DNA of 50,272 nt from Arenicella sp. (GTDB taxonomy: Bacteria > Pseudomonadota > Gammaproteobacteria > Arenicellales > Arenicellaceae). The stretch is taken from NCBI GenBank assembly GCA_023301745.1, contig JALZVW010000041.1:1-50272 (forward strand). Reading direction: 5' to 3'. This document shows positions 3,758 to 13,289 of the stretch, piece by piece; position 1 is the stretch's first letter; each line of letters begins with the position of its first letter. The notes beneath the pieces are model-generated. The model ran no database searches, was not told the DNA's origin, and worked only from the letters and a program-made list of their open reading frames with translations. A program made the position numbers and the translations under genes.

Positions 3758-5074
3758 ATGAATTTAGCGAATAAAATCCTTATTGCACTGTTACTTGGCA
3801 TCGGCATTGGCCTGATCATTAATATACTGAACCTGGGAGCAATTGCATGGGTTGACCAATACATTATTAATGGCGTATTCCATGTTGTTGGTAAATTATT
3901 TGTAAACGCATTGAAAATGCTCGTCGTGCCGCTGGTTCTGTTTTCATTGATTCCTGGGATAATTGGCATCGGTGACATTAGATTGCTCGGTCGCATTGGC
4001 ACTAAATCATTCGCCCTTTACATTGCCACTACTGCGATCGCGATTACCACAGCCATCATATTCGCTGTCGGCTTTAAAGTAGGCGTTGGCAGCAGCATCT
4101 CAATCGAAGCCGCCAGTGATTTTGAGGCTAAGGAGCCAAGAACGTTCGCCGATACCTTAATAAGCATCATCCCGCCTAATCCCATTCAAGCGCTTGCTCA
4201 GGGAGACATGTTGGCGATTATTTTCTTTTCAATTTTCTTTGGTATCGCCCTACTCTCAGTAGCAAAACGCGCGCCCGAATTGATTAAGGTTATTGACCAG
4301 ATCAACGCTACCGTTATGCAAATGGTCACTATGGTTATGTGGTTTGCGCCCTATGCGGTATTTTGCTTGCTGGCAAAAGTAATCGCTGAACTTGGGCCGG
4401 ATATTATCGGCAGTTTAGCAAAGTATTTTTTCGTATTGATAGCCGCACTGCTTTTCCATATGTTGGTCACACAAATGTTGTTGCTGAAATTATTTACCGG
4501 CTTAAGCCCAGCAAAATTTCTCAAAAAAATCCGCACTGCACAAATCTTTGCTTTCAGCACCGCCAGTTCAGGCGCCACTATTCCAATCACTCTAAAAGCA
4601 GTTCAAGACCGCTTAGGGGTTAATAAATCGGTAGCGTCTTTTAGCGTTCCATTCGGCGCCACCATCAATATGGATGGCACGGCTATGATGCAGGGCGTGG
4701 CAACGGTATTTATCGCTAGCTTATATGGTATTGAGTTAGGCTTAGGTGGTTATGCAACCATTATTTTAACCGCCGTGCTAGCCTCCATTGGCACGGCAGC
4801 AGTGCCCTCTGTTGGCACTGTAATGCTGGTGATGGTGTTTGATCAAGTTGGCTTACCGGCCGAAGCCATCGGCTTAATTATCGGTGTGGATCGTGTGCTT
4901 GATATGGTTCGCACATCGGTTAATGTCACCGGCGATGCTGTGGTTAGCACTATTGTCGCAAAAAGTGAAAGCCGGCTTGACGTCGATATCTACAATGACC
5001 CAGATGCAGGTATGTTAGACGAAGGTGATGTTGGAATTCACCTAGATGAAACAGGGAACATCAAGCCTTCATAG
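3758..5074 (+). CDS. Dicarboxylate/amino acid:cation symporter (DAACS family)
   Basis: A 438-residue inner-membrane transporter of the GltP/GltT/DctA type, which imports glutamate, aspartate or C4-dicarboxylates with Na+ or H+. Visible hallmarks: several N-terminal hydrophobic helices, the re-entrant-loop serine motif STASSGATIP (about 267-276), NMDGTA (about 304-309), and the GVDRVLDMVRTSVNVTGD region in the last helix, where conserved Asp and Arg/Asn residues bind substrate and cation. The substrate cannot be decided by reading. It converges on the gdh/aminotransferase pair, 44 bases away, which would fit uptake of glutamate or aspartate. Confidence 0.93.
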   Translation: MNLANKILIALLLGIGIGLIINILNLGAIAWVDQYIINGVFHVVGKLFVNALKMLVVPLVLFSLIPGIIGIGDIRLLGRIGTKSFALYIATTAIAITTAIIFAVGFKVGVGSSISIEAASDFEAKEPRTFADTLISIIPPNPIQALAQGDMLAIIFFSIFFGIALLSVAKRAPELIKVIDQINATVMQMVTMVMWFAPYAVFCLLAKVIAELGPDIIGSLAKYFFVLIAALLFHMLVTQMLLLKLFTGLSPAKFLKKIRTAQIFAFSTASSGATIPITLKAVQDRLGVNKSVASFSVPFGATINMDGTAMMQGVATVFIASLYGIELGLGGYATIILTAVLASIGTAAVPSVGTVMLVMVFDQVGLPAEAIGLIIGVDRVLDMVRTSVNVTGDAVVSTIVAKSESRLDVDIYNDPDAGMLDEGDVGIHLDETGNIKPS

Positions 5075-5118: not shown

Positions 5119-6525
5119 CTAAATTCCTAAGGATCCATAAGAATCTTGAATGCGCTCCAAGGCGATCATCATCGCCGCGGTGCGCAAATCTGGAATGCGA
5201 TTGTCGCTGCGCCACTTCTTACTGATCACTTGGTAACCTTCGCGCATCACATCATCTAAACCAGATCGAACTAAATCCAACTCGGTTGGGCCTTCAATGA
5301 TTTTTTCTAAATGCTTAGTCGGAAACTTTGACCCGACCATTTCTTCGATCGCTTCAACCATCTGTAAGGTTTGCTTCTCATGTTGGCGACGTTGCATTCG
5401 ACCAAAGCGAATATGACTCAAGTTTTTAACCCACTCAAAGTAAGATACCGTCACACCACCGGCATTCGCGTATAAATCAGGGATAATTAAACAGCCCTTG
5501 TCTCTTAATATCTCGTTCGCGGTAAATGTAATTGGCCCGTTAGCGGCTTCGATAACGATATTCGCTTTAATATCATTCGCATTTTCTCTGGTGACGATGC
5601 CCTCCATCGCGGCTGGGATAAAAATATCACAATCCATCGTTAGAACGCTGGTCGAATCAGAAGTGTAACCGCTATAACCTTTAACGCCGCCGTTTTCATG
5701 GATGTGTTTATGTAAACCGTCAATATCGATTCCGTTTTCATTGACCACCGCGCCATCGCGCTCCATCACACCAACAATAATCGCGCCATCTTCTTGAGAT
5801 AAGAATTGTGCCGCGTGATAGCCCACATTACCCAGCCCCTGCACAACGACGCGCTTGCCATCCAGCGTACCGGATAAGCCGGCCCATTTAATGTCCTCAG
5901 GGTGCCTGAACGCCTCTTTTAAGGCATATTGAATGCCGCGCCCAGTGGCTTCAACTCGACCTCGAATGCCACCTTTACTCACCGGCTTGCCAGTCACGCA
6001 CGCCCAACTATTAAGATCCGATGGGTAAAGACGCTTATATTCGTCGGCCATCCATGCCATTTCTCGTTCGCCGGTACCCATATCTGGCGCTGGCACATTT
6101 TGAGCGGGGCTAATCAACGACCGTTTAGCTAACTCTTGCGTAAAGCGGCGTGTAATTCGCTCGAGTTCATGTTCTTCCCATTCACTCGGGTCAATCACTA
6201 GCGCACCCTTAGAGCCACCAAATGGCGCTTCAACCAAGGCACATTTATAGGTCATTAATGCCGCCAATGCCTCGACTTCATTTTGGTCTGCGTGTGGCGA
6301 ATATCGAATACCGCCTTTAACCGGTTCACGATGCTCTGAGTGCACAGAACGATAACCGGTGAAGGTAAATAACTTATTTCTGAGTCGCACGCCAAAACGT
6401 ACTGTATAGGTAGAATTAGCCACCTTTATTTTATGCCGTAAACCCTCGGAAACACCCACCAAGTCTGCCGCTTGATCGAACATTCGTTCAACCGACGACA
6501 GAAAAGTTTCAGTTTGTTTTGTCAT
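5119..6525 (-). CDS. Glutamate dehydrogenase (Glu/Leu/Phe/Val dehydrogenase family)
   Basis: A 468-residue oxidoreductase for reversible oxidative deamination of glutamate to 2-oxoglutarate and ammonia. The substrate domain has GGIRYSP (71-77), a conserved Lys in MTYKCAL (K94) and the catalytic-type Lys in PFGGSKG (K106), corresponding to K113 and K125 of the clostridial enzyme. The Rossmann domain has VVVQGLGNVGYHA (GxGxxG). NAD or NADP preference cannot be settled by eye. It lies 25 bases after the aminotransferase on the same strand, probably in one operon, so the pair can recycle amino groups through glutamate. Confidence 0.93.
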   Translation of the reverse strand: MTKQTETFLSSVERMFDQAADLVGVSEGLRHKIKVANSTYTVRFGVRLRNKLFTFTGYRSVHSEHREPVKGGIRYSPHADQNEVEALAALMTYKCALVEAPFGGSKGALVIDPSEWEEHELERITRRFTQELAKRSLISPAQNVPAPDMGTGEREMAWMADEYKRLYPSDLNSWACVTGKPVSKGGIRGRVEATGRGIQYALKEAFRHPEDIKWAGLSGTLDGKRVVVQGLGNVGYHAAQFLSQEDGAIIVGVMERDGAVVNENGIDIDGLHKHIHENGGVKGYSGYTSDSTSVLTMDCDIFIPAAMEGIVTRENANDIKANIVIEAANGPITFTANEILRDKGCLIIPDLYANAGGVTVSYFEWVKNLSHIRFGRMQRRQHEKQTLQMVEAIEEMVGSKFPTKHLEKIIEGPTELDLVRSGLDDVMREGYQVISKKWRSDNRIPDLRTAAMMIALERIQDSYGSLGI

Positions 6526-6550
6526 CTCTCCTCCTCAGATAGATGAATAA

Positions 6551-7858
6551 TTAGTTTATTGAATTCATGAATTTTGCAAACGCAGCCAACGCACCATGAG
6601 TTGCTGGATGCTTGTCAATTGTCATTAAGGTTTTACTCCCTAAGCCTCGATTATACAAGTCAAATATTCGCTGCGAATCAAATTCAGTTTCCATGTCTAA
6701 ATATGAGGTCGATAAGCGCAAAGTCTGCGTTTTTTCGGGTATACCAAAGTCACTTCCGGGCAAGGTAGCAATGTGATACTCAGCAAGCAGGTGACGCGCC
6801 AGGTCGGCCGAGGTGCTGATACCAAGGTGGCTCAAACCAGATCGATATTGATCGAAATTAGCCGCGATGTAAAAGCCGCCTTGCGCACTCGAACAACGCA
6901 CCCCCATGCCAAGCAAGGCGTCTCGAATATATCGCGTACGCACGCCATGTATGGCACAACAATCGACCACATATTGCTCTATGTCATCGTGCTCTTGATA
7001 AGCCGCAATCGCGGCATATTGAATCGGTGCCGAAACCCCGGACCAAGTCTCACTCGCAAACACCACCATTTTTTGCAGTAGTTGCTTGCCGAGTTCCGAG
7101 TCGGGAAATAAAGCGACACCCAGGCGCCAACCACCGATAGACAGATGCTTACTCAAGCCACCAAAGACAAACGTACCTTCTGGGTAATATCGAGATATCG
7201 ATCTGTGTTCAATACCACCGTGACAAACCTGAGAGTAAATTTCGTCACTTAATACCCAAATATTTTTTGCACGGCAATAGGTAGCCAATTGTTGCAAAGA
7301 TTCATCGCTCATAACTTCCCCAGAGGGGTTATTCGGGCTATTGATTACCAACAACTTGCAAGGATTATCTGAGGCGTTTATGAGCGTGTCCAACGCCTTA
7401 AGATCAAGCTTGTAGTTATCTTCGACCTTTGATGGAATATAGCTGACTTTATTACCTAACAAATGAGCTTGAGGCGCATAACTTACCCACGACGGTGTCG
7501 GTAGAAACAAGTCGGCGCCCATCACCATTTGCAAACCGTAAATCAACGATTTACTGCCTGGCCCAATTAGCACTTGAGAGGAAGAAAACGGCCTGCCTAA
7601 CTTGCTTGTATAATAACTCGCAACGCTATCAATTAGCGCAGGCAAGCCACGAGCGGGTAAGTAACTCTTTTTATTTGCGCTGTCGCTGAGTGACTTCTGG
7701 AGCCGCGGATGCACGTCAAAGCGAGACTCACCAAAGCCCATATGGAACGCCTGCTCACCTTGTTGCCATAATTGATTGACGGCTTCATTGATAAATAAAG
7801 TGGATGAAGGCACTAGGCCATCGAATGCTGGGTTAAAAAAATTGTTGTTTGTGTCCAT
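6551..7858 (-). CDS. Class I/II PLP-dependent aminotransferase
   Basis: Fold type I aminotransferase of 435 residues from the chosen start. Counted from there, it shows the loop NSPNNPSG (173-180), SDEIY (204-208), the PLP Schiff-base Lys in GGLSKHLSIGGWRLG (K237) and the carboxylate-binding Arg just after it (R245). The substrate is unassigned. The frame runs open to 7918, but that start lies inside the terminator of the preceding gene, so I take the ATG at 7858, which has only a weak GAG upstream; the ATG at 7867 is an alternative. Probably co-transcribed with glutamate dehydrogenase. Confidence 0.9.
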   Translation of the reverse strand: MDTNNNFFNPAFDGLVPSSTLFINEAVNQLWQQGEQAFHMGFGESRFDVHPRLQKSLSDSANKKSYLPARGLPALIDSVASYYTSKLGRPFSSSQVLIGPGSKSLIYGLQMVMGADLFLPTPSWVSYAPQAHLLGNKVSYIPSKVEDNYKLDLKALDTLINASDNPCKLLVINSPNNPSGEVMSDESLQQLATYCRAKNIWVLSDEIYSQVCHGGIEHRSISRYYPEGTFVFGGLSKHLSIGGWRLGVALFPDSELGKQLLQKMVVFASETWSGVSAPIQYAAIAAYQEHDDIEQYVVDCCAIHGVRTRYIRDALLGMGVRCSSAQGGFYIAANFDQYRSGLSHLGISTSADLARHLLAEYHIATLPGSDFGIPEKTQTLRLSTSYLDMETEFDSQRIFDLYNRGLGSKTLMTIDKHPATHGALAAFAKFMNSIN

Positions 7859-7900
7859 TGATCTCATTAGCGGAAAGTGAAGATGATATGAATTGGAATA

Positions 7901-7942
7901 AAAAAAGCCTGCGCTCAAAAGTTTTGATCGCAGGCCTCTTTT
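7901..7942. terminator. Bidirectional terminator after the TonB receptor gene
   Basis: Near-perfect palindrome: GCCTGCG / CGCAGGC with inner TCAAAA / TTTTGA, flanked by A6 on one side and a T-rich tract on the other. On the minus strand it ends the receptor transcript before the aminotransferase gene. Confidence 0.85.
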
Positions 7943-7969
7943 AACACTATAAAACAGAAAAACGTCTAG

Positions 7970-10777
7970 CTAGAATTCGTAGAGCCCTTTGAGGTACCAA
8001 GAGCCACCTTCGTAGTTGGCGACAGTACGACGAGGGAATTGAAGACCCACACTTTGACGATTAGCAAACACACCGTCATTGTCAATTTCATCAATAAACT
8101 CATCAAAAATATTAGACGCACCTAACACTAACTTCAAATTATCACTGGCCTGCCAAGAAACCTCTGCATCAAAGTAAACCACCGAATCGATCTCGGCGCT
8201 TCGATTACCAGCGTCACCGTTAATCGTGCCACGTTCATCGAAATGATCACCATAAAAATTAGCTCTAACCAATAGACTCACGGCCTCATTTAAGAAGGTG
8301 TTGGTCGTCAATGTAAATCGATCTTCGGGATAATTATTTTCAATGTCTTCTATGGTTGCATCGCTGACCGGGTTCAAGCCTTGCACTTGTGTTTGGCCTG
8401 TTACGTCAATTTCATTGTGCGCATACGCAAAAGTAAGCGATGTACTGGTGTTGCCCCAGTCGATTGAACCATTCAACACAACATCAATGCCTTCGTGCTC
8501 TAGATCGAGCGCGTTAGTATAGAAAGATAAGGTGCTATCCAAGGTGCCAACAACAGGAATGTCGCCGGTACGATAAATTCGATCGTCAATTTCAACGTTG
8601 TAATAATCAACGGTTAGGTCCCACGCACTGCCTAAACTGGTGGCAAAACCAACGCTAATATTGGTTGATTCCTCTTCCACTAATTCACCACCACCGGCCG
8701 CAATAGCCGCCGCACTTGTGGCTGGCACTAGGCCTTCTAAAACGAGATCGCCGGTTCGGCCATCAAAGGTCGTAATAATAGATGAAATATTAGCTTGCCC
8801 AGGCGTTGGAGCATGAAAGCCGGTAGACACAGCGCCACGCAAAGTAAACGCATCGTTCACACTATAACGCGTCGCTACTTTACCATTGACGGTGGAGCCA
8901 AAATCAGAGAAATCTTCATAACGAACGGCATATTGCATTAGCCACTTATCACTGATGTCGTGTTCCAAGTCAGCATAAACAGCAATGTTGTCGCGATCAA
9001 ACTCACCGGCATCTTCAGCGCTCGGCGGCGTGAAACCGCTCGGCCCTGCGCCAACCGTTGAATTCGCATCGCCGAGCAATGCAGTCCAAGTCTCTTCACG
9101 CCATTCAGCGCCATAGGACAATGACAGGGAGTCACTTAACAGCGTTGAGAAATCAGCATTCAAGGTTATCTCTTCTTGTTCATAACCACCGACGTCAAAA
9201 TCTTGTACTGGCGTTCCATCTGCCAACAACGGCAAGCTAGGGTTTATCGTATTATTAAGGAAGTAATCTAACTCGTTTTTGCCATAGCCAACACTAAAAT
9301 CATAAGTCGTACCGCCAGCAAACTCGCCTCTAAGACCAGTTACAAAGCTCACATCGGTTTGATCACCATCAAGAAACGGCGTGAAACCAACATTACAAAG
9401 TTGTAGATCGGGGTTTTGGGCACACGTGCTTGTTACGGCTGAGTTTGAGAGATTGCGATAGAAAAACCGATAGCGACCTTCAGTGTCAGCGTAGTTACCA
9501 AAAGAATACAACTCAGAACCATTAGCGAGTTCGATTCCAGAATTCCATGCAAACCTTAACGCTTGCGTTTCTGGACGCCCCCATGTTTGAGTGAATGGTG
9601 CATCGCCAAAAGGTGAGTCTGCTCCAACTCCCTCAACGCCAGCATCGATCAGAGCCTGTGCGTCTGGGCGAATAACGCCACGAGACAAGGCATCGTTGTC
9701 GACAAACTCTACGCTTGCATTTAAAAAGCCAGTTTCCGAAATCTTAAAGCCGAGATTTGCCGCCACTTTCAGGCTGCTTTCACCTTCATAAAATTCGCCG
9801 TATGTGACTTCAGCGTGACCGCCTTCATTCGCATCTTTGTACTCAAAGTTCATGACACCGGCAATCGCATCAGAACCATATTGAGCCGCCGCGCCATCGC
9901 GCAGAACTTGTATATTTTTTAAGGCAATACTTGGGATCATACCGATATCAACACCGTGCGAGCCATTACCTGCAGCGGGGGCAAAGAACTGTACTAACGA
10001 AGAGCGATGACGGCGCTTGCCATTAACTAAAACGAGTGTTTGGTCAGGCGACATGCCACGCAGAGACGTTGGTCGAATAAACGCGCTACCATCACCGGTT
10101 GCCGGTGTTGCCGTATAAGATGGCACCAATGCTTTTAGGTTATCGGTGATATCGGCGCCATTGCCAAGCGCCGAAAAATCGTCGCCACTAATAACATCAA
10201 CGGGTACGGGGGAGTCACTTGCTGACCTAGCTCGTGCGCTACGGCTACCCAAAACAACAACTTCTTCTAAACCACTGGCTTCTTGCTCCTGAGCATAAAC
10301 TTCAGCGGCGCCAATGCTCGCACTGGCGATGGCCAAACTTATTACGCTCGGGGTCAGTCTTTTTGGTAATGATTTCACGTCTAATTCCTCTTCAATATTT
10401 TGTTGGTTCTGAGATTCTGTTGCCAGTTCTGCAGCTTCATTTTTATTACCAACACCTGCGCTCACCACAATGCCTGTACCTCGAAGCATTTGTTGCAGAC
10501 CATCACGGATCGAATAACGACCAAACAAAGGTTGTGTTTTTACCTTCTTAACCTCTTTGTACGGGAACAGCAATGTCAAATCGGCTTGTCGAGCAAATCG
10601 AGTAAGCGCCTTGTCAGCTGAGAGTCGAGGAACATTGAAATAGAACTCTTCGCCTTCGTCACGGGATTGGCCAATGCTGATCGCAGACCAACATAAACAG
10701 CTAGCCATTAACGCTAGTCGAAACAGCATCGAAAAGTTCACCATGGTCAATAATTTAAACAAAATCACGACTCTCAC
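7970..10777 (-). CDS. TonB-dependent receptor with N-terminal STN signalling domain
   Basis: A 935-residue outer-membrane receptor in the longest frame. In order: a signal peptide (hydrophobic LFRLALMASCLCWSAIS), an STN domain (about 45-108, the FecA-type domain that contacts FecR), an acidic linker, then a second complete signal-peptide-like segment (residues 134-162, ending VYA before Q163), a TonB box (LEEVVVLG, 170-177), a plug (about 190-310, with VLRDGAAAQYGSDAIAGV) and a 22-strand-type barrel ending in Phe. The second signal peptide begins at a GTG with its own ribosome binding site. The first start has no good SD; GTG 10777, TTG 10762 and ATG 10744 are candidates. It follows the sigma and FecR genes. 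Ligand unknown. Confidence 0.93.
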   Translation of the reverse strand: MRVVILFKLLTMVNFSMLFRLALMASCLCWSAISIGQSRDEGEEFYFNVPRLSADKALTRFARQADLTLLFPYKEVKKVKTQPLFGRYSIRDGLQQMLRGTGIVVSAGVGNKNEAAELATESQNQQNIEEELDVKSLPKRLTPSVISLAIASASIGAAEVYAQEQEASGLEEVVVLGSRSARARSASDSPVPVDVISGDDFSALGNGADITDNLKALVPSYTATPATGDGSAFIRPTSLRGMSPDQTLVLVNGKRRHRSSLVQFFAPAAGNGSHGVDIGMIPSIALKNIQVLRDGAAAQYGSDAIAGVMNFEYKDANEGGHAEVTYGEFYEGESSLKVAANLGFKISETGFLNASVEFVDNDALSRGVIRPDAQALIDAGVEGVGADSPFGDAPFTQTWGRPETQALRFAWNSGIELANGSELYSFGNYADTEGRYRFFYRNLSNSAVTSTCAQNPDLQLCNVGFTPFLDGDQTDVSFVTGLRGEFAGGTTYDFSVGYGKNELDYFLNNTINPSLPLLADGTPVQDFDVGGYEQEEITLNADFSTLLSDSLSLSYGAEWREETWTALLGDANSTVGAGPSGFTPPSAEDAGEFDRDNIAVYADLEHDISDKWLMQYAVRYEDFSDFGSTVNGKVATRYSVNDAFTLRGAVSTGFHAPTPGQANISSIITTFDGRTGDLVLEGLVPATSAAAIAAGGGELVEEESTNISVGFATSLGSAWDLTVDYYNVEIDDRIYRTGDIPVVGTLDSTLSFYTNALDLEHEGIDVVLNGSIDWGNTSTSLTFAYAHNEIDVTGQTQVQGLNPVSDATIEDIENNYPEDRFTLTTNTFLNEAVSLLVRANFYGDHFDERGTINGDAGNRSAEIDSVVYFDAEVSWQASDNLKLVLGASNIFDEFIDEIDNDGVFANRQSVGLQFPRRTVANYEGGSWYLKGLYEF
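10376..10391 (-). promoter_or_regulatory. Internal ribosome binding site and GTG start inside the receptor gene
   Basis: On the minus strand AGAGGA (10386-10391) is followed, after 7 bases, by GTG (10376-10378), which opens V/M-KSLPKR and a hydrophobic stretch. Starting here yields an 802-residue receptor with its own signal peptide and no STN domain. Confidence 0.6.
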
Positions 10778-10891
10778 TTATATTGAGAACCAAGGAGATA
10801 TTTTCCGCCATTGGAATACGATATTTATATTCATAAAAAATTAAATATACGAACGAACTAGGCTTTCTACATAAAATCGGCACCACTAGAT

Positions 10892-11944
10892 TCACATGGC
10901 CTTAGATAGGCGAACTTCATTTCCAACGACTTCGCTGGAGACACCAAAGTTACTTTCTAACACCATTAGTAGTTGATCTAGGTCGCCAGTCTTGAAAAAT
11001 CCGCCAACAGAGATAGAGGCAAGCTCTTGATCTAAAAGACTAAACTTCAACGGTGTGTAACGATTAACCTCGGCAATAACCTCGGTTAAACTCTCGCCTT
11101 GAAAGACCACCATACCTTCTCTCCAAGCAAGTAAAGACTCAGGGTCTTGCTCGGAGCTGACTTCAAATGCATCGTCTTTCGCTACCGCTTTTTGTCCAGG
11201 AACAAGGTAGATTGGCAATTGACGATTACCACTCGTTACTTGAACTTTACCTTCCGTGACGATAACTTCTGAAACTGACCGGCGGTCATCAATGACGTCA
11301 CCCGCGTCAATGCTAAACGCTGTTCCGATGGCCGTCACTTTATCGGCCCCGACACTGACCACAAAAGGCCTAGCCGAGTTTTTTGCTACGTCAAAATAGA
11401 CTTCGCCCTGCATCAGTTCTATATTGCGCTGCGTATCAGTAAACCTAACAAGCACCTCAGAATCGGTATTTAACTCCAACGAGCTGCCGTCAGGCAATGA
11501 CACAGTCGAAATTTCACCAACAGCGGTTTTATAACTACGTATGCTCAAACTAGACGACTTTACTGGTGAGTCTGAAACACCACCTCCACCCGTAATATCA
11601 CTCACCGGTTTCATTGCAGGCATACCGACATAAGCGGCCAAGCCTACACACACCATGATACTCGCGGCTATCGACATTGATTTAACAGCGCGAAAAGCCG
11701 ATTGTGGCTTTTCTGAATTAGCGTCGACATCAATTGGCATCAACTTGGCAATCGGTTTTAACACATCGAGTAGGTCCCACATAGACGCCGTTTTAACCAA
11801 CGACGCGCCGTGCAGCGACGATTCCGCTAGCCATGCTTCCAATAGAGCTTCTTCGTCAGCGCTTATTCCTCGATCAATTTTGGCAACCCAATTAGCGGCT
11901 TGATTTTCTATTTCTTCCAAATCTGGAAATTGTATCGTTTTCAT
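10892..11944 (-). CDS. FecR-family anti-sigma regulator
   Basis: 350 residues. An N-terminal cytoplasmic DUF4880-like segment (ANWVAKIDRG...EEALLEAWLAES) would bind the sigma factor; one membrane helix follows at about 91-110 (SIAASIMVCVGLAAYVG). The periplasmic FecR domain has SLPDGSSLELNTDS, GEVYFDVAK and RPFVVSVGADKVTAIGTAF. The C-terminal DUF4974/STN-like domain (FSLLDQELASISVGGFFKT) would receive the receptor's STN domain. The ATG overlaps the sigma-factor stop as ATGA, implying translational coupling. Confidence 0.93.
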   Translation of the reverse strand: MKTIQFPDLEEIENQAANWVAKIDRGISADEEALLEAWLAESSLHGASLVKTASMWDLLDVLKPIAKLMPIDVDANSEKPQSAFRAVKSMSIAASIMVCVGLAAYVGMPAMKPVSDITGGGGVSDSPVKSSSLSIRSYKTAVGEISTVSLPDGSSLELNTDSEVLVRFTDTQRNIELMQGEVYFDVAKNSARPFVVSVGADKVTAIGTAFSIDAGDVIDDRRSVSEVIVTEGKVQVTSGNRQLPIYLVPGQKAVAKDDAFEVSSEQDPESLLAWREGMVVFQGESLTEVIAEVNRYTPLKFSLLDQELASISVGGFFKTGDLDQLLMVLESNFGVSSEVVGNEVRLSKAM

Positions 11945-12534
11945 TGTTCTATTTTCTTCGCTTCTCGAATGCTCTGAACGTCAGCAACCTGCTGCTCGGC
12001 TTGACCAGTTGCTTGCTGCATGTCGTGCGCGCGCGTAATTCGCAGCAGCCCCTTTGCAACGTGCTTTTCTACGGTACTCTCGCTAATACCTAGACGAGTC
12101 GCGATTTCGCGTTGCGATAAGCCGTAGACCTTTTTTAAAACAAACACTTTGCCGCACTGCTCTGGCAACGCACTAACCGATTGGCAGAGAAACTCGAAAT
12201 CCTTGCGGCTAACCACATCGCGCTCTGTCTGGCTGGAGAAATCAGCGGCATGATAAAGTGATGAGCTTTCATTCGATCGTTGGTCAATTTCCGGGTCACA
12301 GTCCATGCGTTTGGCAACAGAAATATGCCGATTAGCCAAACGAATCGCGACTTTGACCATAAACGCTTTAGGGTAGCGAATTTCGCTTAAAAGAGAAGAT
12401 TGATACGTTTTGATATAGGTTTCTTGAAGTATGTCTTCGATATCTTGCTCATTAGCCTGCGGCCGAATCTTATTGAGTAACGACGAGATAATTTTTCGGT
12501 ACTTCAAAAATTCATTTGTTATTTTTTCATTCAT
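11941..12534 (-). CDS. ECF-type RNA polymerase sigma factor (FecI-like)
   Basis: 197 residues from the ATG at 12534; the frame stays open upstream, but that part lies in the TauE gene. Region 2 contains DIEDILQETYIKTYQ (31-45). Region 4 (122-165) has SALPEQCGKVFVLKKVYGLS and the helix-turn-helix LSQREIATRLGISESTVEKH, which recognises the -35 element. The ATG overlaps the tauE stop as TGATG, and its own stop overlaps the fecR ATG. Expected to be held by FecR and released when the receptor binds its ligand. Confidence 0.92.
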   Translation of the reverse strand: MNEKITNEFLKYRKIISSLLNKIRPQANEQDIEDILQETYIKTYQSSLLSEIRYPKAFMVKVAIRLANRHISVAKRMDCDPEIDQRSNESSSLYHAADFSSQTERDVVSRKDFEFLCQSVSALPEQCGKVFVLKKVYGLSQREIATRLGISESTVEKHVAKGLLRITRAHDMQQATGQAEQQVADVQSIREAKKIEQ

Positions 12535-13289
12535 CAAATAGCCCATGCAATTAATATTATGAAACACACTGCGATCACCAAGTAACGCAATAATTCTGGG
12601 TTGATACTCATTAATGAACGAGCACCATACCGAGCACCAACCGCCTGGCCAAGCATCATAAGAAGCCCGATTTTCCAAACAATCTTACCAAATGCAGCAA
12701 ATACCAATAACGCGGCCACGTTGGTAGCAAAGTTAAACGCCTTGGCGGCCATCGTTGAATGCACGATTGCTTGGCCCTGGAGTGACACACCAGACCAAAC
12801 AAAAAATGAGCCCGTACCTGGCCCGAACATTCCGTCATACAAACCAATTCCAGGCACCGCGCTAAACGCATAAGTCGTCGCGCTGATCTTAGGCTCGGTT
12901 TGTTCGATTGACTGCCGCGGTGCGAAAATAAAATACAAGGCAATGACAATTATCACGCCAGGAATAATCACACTTAGAATTGTAGCATCAAAATATTGCA
13001 CAATAACGGCACCAAAGCACGACCCGAAAAATGCCGTGATCATGGCCAGTCGAACGCGGCTAAACTCTAGCTTCCCGCTATAGAGCATCATGAAAGTGGC
13101 CGTACCCGACCCCGCCACCGCCTGTAACTTGTTAGTGCCTAACGCAAAAATAGGCGGTAAGCCGGCAAGCATCAATGCAGGGATGGTAATTAAGCCTCCC
13201 CCGCCTACCAATGTATCGATGTAGCCAGCCACAAACGCAGCTAAAACAAGCAACACCATAATCATTAACGAAGGTTCTATGACGTCCAT
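12534..13289 (-). CDS. TauE/SafE (TSUP) family membrane permease
   Basis: A 251-residue, highly hydrophobic protein with about seven to eight membrane helices in two similar halves. Family motifs are visible: GYIDTLVGGGGLITIPAL near the start, LGTNKLQAVAGSGTA, and in the second half GLYDGMFGPGTGSFF. Members export or import sulfite, sulfoacetate or related organosulfur anions; the substrate here is unknown. First gene of a coupled set with the sigma factor and fecR, which is not its usual company. Confidence 0.9.
   Translation of the reverse strand: MDVIEPSLMIMVLLVLAAFVAGYIDTLVGGGGLITIPALMLAGLPPIFALGTNKLQAVAGSGTATFMMLYSGKLEFSRVRLAMITAFFGSCFGAVIVQYFDATILSVIIPGVIIVIALYFIFAPRQSIEQTEPKISATTYAFSAVPGIGLYDGMFGPGTGSFFVWSGVSLQGQAIVHSTMAAKAFNFATNVAALLVFAAFGKIVWKIGLLMMLGQAVGARYGARSLMSINPELLRYLVIAVCFIILIAWAI

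Follow-up and report, generated by a model that had tools for sequence, protein, structure and literature searches.

Two candidate starts in one frame: a TonB-dependent receptor gene nested in an STN-receptor gene of Arenicella

Does a single long frame in a genome of the marine bacterium Arenicella encode one TonB-dependent receptor or two? The window, by which we mean the whole stretch of DNA analysed (50,272 nucleotides of contig JALZVW010000041.1), carries on its minus strand a frame at 7970-10777 that is open over 935 codons. Its domain order is signal peptide, STN signalling domain, linker, AGAGGA followed after 7 nt by GTG, second signal peptide, TonB box, plug and barrel. The first-pass annotation had read this as a receptor with its own Shine-Dalgarno (SD) sequence, GTG and signal peptide nested in an STN-receptor frame, a description confirmed by sequence, Pfam and profile comparison. 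It was also correct in placing AGAGGA exactly 7 bases before the GTG (the spacer is ATTAGAC) and a TonB box after the signal peptide (residues 170-178). The features of the locus are as follows.

11941..12678, minus: ECF sigma factor (FecI-like), by Pfam Sigma70_r4_2 and Sigma70_ECF; adjoins nested orthologues
10892..11944, minus: FecR-type anti-sigma regulator, by Pfam FecR and FecR_C; upstream of nested genes
10779..10806, minus: putative ECF-like promoter motif, GGAAA-N19-TATA, 5' of the STN start
10742..10744, minus: ATG at residue 12 of the listed frame, probably the first start, by orthologue comparison
10667..10744, minus: putative N-terminal signal peptide of the long form, with the hydrophobic stretch MVNFSMLFRLALMASCLCWSAISIGQ
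10451..10651, minus: STN signalling domain; weak Pfam STN match, profile match to PupA/PupB/FecA, pN/pS about 0.2
10379..10450, minus: variable linker ending in the SD-encoding codons; pN/pS about 0.85, lowered pS
10386..10391, minus: internal SD, AGAGGA, by sequence and comparison
10376..10378, minus: GTG as internal start codon, where six of the other nested orthologues have ATG
10292..10378, minus: internal signal peptide, residues 134-162, cleavage VYA^Q, by sequence and orthologue conservation
10244..10270, minus: TonB box LEEVVVLGS, residues 170-178, by sequence; conserved in the orthologue alignment
9854..10222, minus: plug domain, residues 186-308, Pfam PF07715
7970..9487, minus: beta-barrel (residues 431-890) and stop codon, Pfam PF00593

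The internal signal peptide reads VKSLPKRLTPSVISLAIASASIGAAEVYA^Q over residues 134-162. The Pfam STN match of the window gene is weak (20.4 bits against a cut-off of 28.4), and a profile built from the orthologues picks up the PupA, PupB and FecA signalling domains of solved structure, with E values from 2.6e-6 to 6e-4. An AlphaFold model of residues 12-326 from 11 sequences is of low confidence (mean pLDDT 46) and was given no weight; it has a plausible strand and helix pattern in STN, with the linker and the internal signal peptide disordered. FecR and the ECF sigma factor lie upstream of the receptor, and an aminotransferase and a glutamate dehydrogenase downstream (Pfam). Judged by its sequence context, the window gene sits in an ECF sigma/FecR cell-surface-signalling operon. 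The listed sigma-factor frame begins at TTG and overlaps a TauE-family gene (12534-12678); the actual start is probably more internal.

The receptor, aminotransferase and glutamate dehydrogenase genes (5119-10777 in the window) are linked in most orthologues (L031-L042), and a dicarboxylate/glutamate-type symporter (3758-5074) lies beside the group, again in most orthologues. This company hints that the substrate of the receptor enters amino-acid catabolism. The glutamate dehydrogenase of G011 carries a frameshift (L037, 12919-12923), which, in a single assembly, may be a mutation or an assembly error.

Within the genus, 12 relatives of the same syntenic gene were read. Eight genes, including that of the window, are nested (G000, G006, G007, G008, G011, G012, G013 and G017), the one in G007 being divided between two contigs at the STN/receptor junction. 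In these, the STN frame is open without a stop into the SD, an ATG or GTG, the signal peptide and the receptor. The homologue alignment proposed in the first-pass annotation was thus carried out: SD, start and internal signal peptide are retained in all eight, and they recur in other clades. Six have ATG as start and two, which are sister species, have GTG. Across the alignment the linker varies strongly, its conserved columns being essentially just the start and the codons encoding the SD (GAG GAG, GAA GAG GAA or GAC GAG). Loss of the internal start goes together with loss or erosion of the SD and signal peptide. In G004, G015 and G005, SD, start and signal-peptide character have disappeared together (G004 has ATA in place of the others' ATG), and sigma, FecR and STN are kept. 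In G014 and G016, which have no sigma, FecR or STN, the receptor starts where the internal start lies in the others, behind an SD and with an ordinary signal peptide; because the tree nests both inside the nested Arenicella genes, their state is most simply a loss. Either form can be lost alone, which suggests that each suffices for something. In G020, from the neighbouring genus, STN, an AGGAGAG SD and an ATG share one frame, and a frameshift then interrupts the internal signal peptide (L043, 6090-6190), here too a mutation or an assembly error in a single assembly.

Beyond the genus, a scan of one genome per species over about 85,000 species yielded 80 relatives that were kept. The majority are STN-less receptors with their own signal peptide at the position of the internal one. 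The nested layout is found in a Kangiellaceae genome (L055), in Alteromonadaceae/Colwellia-like genomes (L057, L068, L074) and in Paraglaciecola/Glaciecola (L077, L098, L109). In a quick maximum-likelihood tree, nested genes occupy three regions with STN-less receptors between them; at least eight state changes are implied, and the tree alone cannot separate gain from loss. The earlier proposal that an STN module was joined in frame to a complete receptor gene agrees with this topology, namely, separate nested clades among STN-less receptors with the same start, and with the gene neighbourhood. FecR lies upstream in 10 of the 12 nested genes with enough sequence and in 1 of 59 other relatives (Fisher p 1.5e-9, kinship ignored); as the genes are related, pooled p values overstate independence. 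No FecR was found upstream of L055 and L074 with the FecR query used.

The inner unit is able to stand alone, in that relatives lacking STN or with a broken STN retain the receptor. Among the Colwellia genes, L069 has a frameshift in the STN part, L070 a degraded STN part and L122 one full of stops, and the SD, ATG and receptor are intact in each; the codon directly before the SD is TAA in L122 and TAT in L070. The receptors at these three loci are in tandem (L069 867-, L070 683-, L122 490-), the upstream copy having kept STN with an eroded internal signal peptide, and the downstream copy having a broken STN with an intact internal start.

The layout is not confined to this subfamily. A Pfam STN search of the relatives returned mostly long, secretin-looking frames that are not receptors, and a receptor-STN profile was used instead, covering 369 genomes from the class together with 61 relatives. 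It revealed in-frame nested layouts in other receptor families (L157/L159, L160-L162, L238, L240, L262, L263 and L274). Several of L157, L159, L160, L161, L162, L238, L262, L263 and L274, which belong to non-orthologous families, have sigma/FecR upstream. Altogether, the layout was counted in 28 genes from several receptor families. In the canonical FecA-like transducers that the survey also covered, the linker contains no start-plus-signal-peptide, in keeping with the single signal peptide that the first-pass annotation had ascribed to FecA-type receptors.

The strength of the internal SD can be judged against chance in two ways. In the window its energy is -6.0 kcal/mol (local rank 0.065), weaker than in most orthologues, and by a synonymous-codon null it is not improbable given its amino acids (p = 0.47). 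The same null applied to individual genes gives p values of 0.09-0.47 and a combined value of 0.03. Since the single-gene signal is weak, the nested-start claim rests on comparison. Among the 28 genes, which were picked by eye for a start codon and a hydrophobic stretch and not for an SD, 22 have an internal SD energy that ranks among the top 10% of local positions, and 17 have one among the top 5%. Moreover, the SD is built in other codon phases and from other amino acids in different genes: ACA GGA GAG...ATG in G020, TAT AGA GGA...ATG in Colwellia and AGGAGGAAGGGGAAATG in L238. This argues that the constraint acts on RNA. Internal start and SD are thus conserved beyond the needs of the protein when genes are compared, the window taken alone being non-significant. 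RNA folding at the STN/receptor junction gave no shared structure that would occlude the SD.

Translation of the long form probably begins at the ATG at 10744 rather than the GTG at 10777, because the frame is closed a few codons upstream of the first ATG in several Arenicella orthologues and an ATG at the position of 10742-10744 is common to all those that bear STN. The first-pass annotation had held that the first start has no SD comparable to the internal one. There is indeed little SD there, but the start that it had used is probably misplaced by 33 bases. Little SD precedes the first start in any Arenicella species, even where the long form is the sole one, and for this reason the relative use of the two starts is unpredictable. 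In most Arenicella orthologues (L031-L045), the place where an SD would be expected, about 7-15 bases ahead of the STN ATG, holds a conserved stretch resembling GCGTAgAAT; it is poorly kept in the window (10745-10760). Further upstream of the STN start, an aligned block GGAA...T(A/G)TAG is present in most Arenicella orthologues; the ECF-like promoter pattern by itself is no rarer than chance within the window. A sigma-70 scan of 10200-11000 found no promoter-like minus-strand site able to yield a short transcript.

Substitution patterns bear on both layers of the frame. In comparisons between nested Arenicella genes, pN/pS rises from 0.06 in the plug through about 0.2 in STN and 0.5 in the internal signal peptide to about 0.85 in the linker. 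The value for STN indicates that its frame is translated and useful. Synonymous divergence, although near saturation, is 0.44-0.57 in the linker and SD plus start versus 0.72-0.86 elsewhere, and the region therefore looks constrained as nucleic acid. Internal and standalone signal peptides have the same core hydrophobicity (KD10 2.39 versus 2.38), but differ in the cost of inserting 19 residues into the membrane, 5.4 kcal/mol for internal against 3.65 for standalone peptides (p 3e-5, made optimistic by kinship). Harder insertion is what export of the long form would require. The internal segment thus fits a peptide that would serve as a signal peptide at the N-terminus and yet not as an inner-membrane stop when internal.

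In the reading that we consider probable, a sigma-FecR-STN cassette came to lie ahead of an entire receptor gene and in frame with it. The resulting nested gene would have two starts, one for a long transducer and the other for a short transporter. The receptor gene would have retained the SD, start codon and signal peptide that it had before. A single mRNA, likely sigma-dependent and made from the ECF-like motif upstream of STN, would be read from the ATG at 10744 into a long, STN-bearing transducer able to engage FecR, and from the GTG at 10378 into a short, STN-less receptor for transport only. The long form would cross the inner membrane with the internal segment intact. One locus would thus probably make a plain transporter and a sensing version of it in the same cell, and the ratio of the two may matter or be regulated. 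Support for this two-start reading comes, at the level of sequence, from the anatomy, the SD, start and signal peptide behaving as a unit, the constraint on STN, the recurrence and the survival of either form. With somewhat less assurance, though still on the favourable side, we extend it to marine gammaproteobacteria: repeated in-frame capture would be a general birth route of their TonB-dependent transducers, the nested stage being selected for dual receptors from one mRNA, and the same segment acting as signal peptide when N-terminal and passing the translocon when internal.

The retained AxA-Q cleavage motif of the internal segment would allow a different outcome, in which only the long form is made and signal peptidase I cuts it after export into a free STN and a receptor. 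A barrel-less STN product would have a counterpart in VreA, an exported STN-domain protein linked to an ECF sigma factor and its regulator, which, unlike the window protein, has no receptor barrel and ends in a TolA/TonB-like domain (PMC2729926). Such cleavage, however, gives no reason for conserving a start codon and an SD in different codon phases, nor does it explain the genes with a broken STN and an intact start. In addition, a segment that follows a translocated STN would be wrongly oriented for signal peptidase, and an STN free of the barrel would be unable to report ligand binding. We regard this course as unlikely.

Two further readings do away with one of the products. If fusion had left the long form as sole product, the internal start and signal peptide would be decaying relics, as their absence from one Arenicella clade and the apparent remnants in upstream tandem copies of Colwellia and in L156 might indicate. 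Decay is nevertheless hard to reconcile with retention in several receptor families and in three separate clades, where GTG and ATG interchange and the SD persists within an otherwise unconstrained linker, or with SD and start conserved in different codon phases, and we give it little credence. Conversely, the short receptor might be all that matters, the upstream STN being effectively its own gene that lost its stop codon with little consequence. The receptor is indeed kept where STN is lost or broken, but with few exceptions the STN frame continues open into the receptor, and G004, G015 and G005 have the fused form exclusively, with sigma/FecR kept; this last reading seems to us very improbable.

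The two-start reading provides a concrete series between transporter and transducer, from STN-less receptors through nested two-start genes to fused genes without the internal signal peptide, visible inside one genus and partly repeated in other clades. If both forms are made, sensing and transport capacity would be separated at translation, tuning cell-surface signalling; we found no description of such tuning by paired forms in the literature searched. Nor did we find any account of STN receptors with an internal signal peptide, dual starts or the nested layout, which is weak evidence, as subscription journals were mostly outside the search. For annotation, having to choose one start for receptors of this kind, many of them given as about 800 or 930 residues, may be a false alternative. 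The layout also poses the question of when the translocon and signal peptidase ignore a signal peptide.

With the transducers FecA, FpvA, FoxA and PupB, the window gene shares the sigma-FecR operon and the order signal peptide, STN, TonB box, plug and barrel, and the PupB and FecA domains are matched by the STN profile of its family. STN precedes TonB box, plug and barrel in one frame, and the cognate ECF sigma factor and FecR are adjacent. It differs in that an extra signal peptide (residues 134-162), equipped with an SD and a start of its own, separates STN from the TonB box. On sequence grounds, the protein belongs among the cell-surface-signalling transducers and breaks their usual feature of a single N-terminal signal peptide. 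Its inner part shares signal peptide, start, TonB box, plug and barrel with the STN-less receptors of the subfamily, which are without an upstream STN frame and almost never have sigma/FecR adjacent. Bacteria also have a class of genes in which an internal in-frame start yields a second, N-terminally shortened protein. The window gene resembles these in having two predicted products per frame, the shorter without the N-terminal domain. Unlike in that class, the internal start opens its own signal peptide, so that both products would be exported, and one segment must serve as signal peptide in one product and not in the other.
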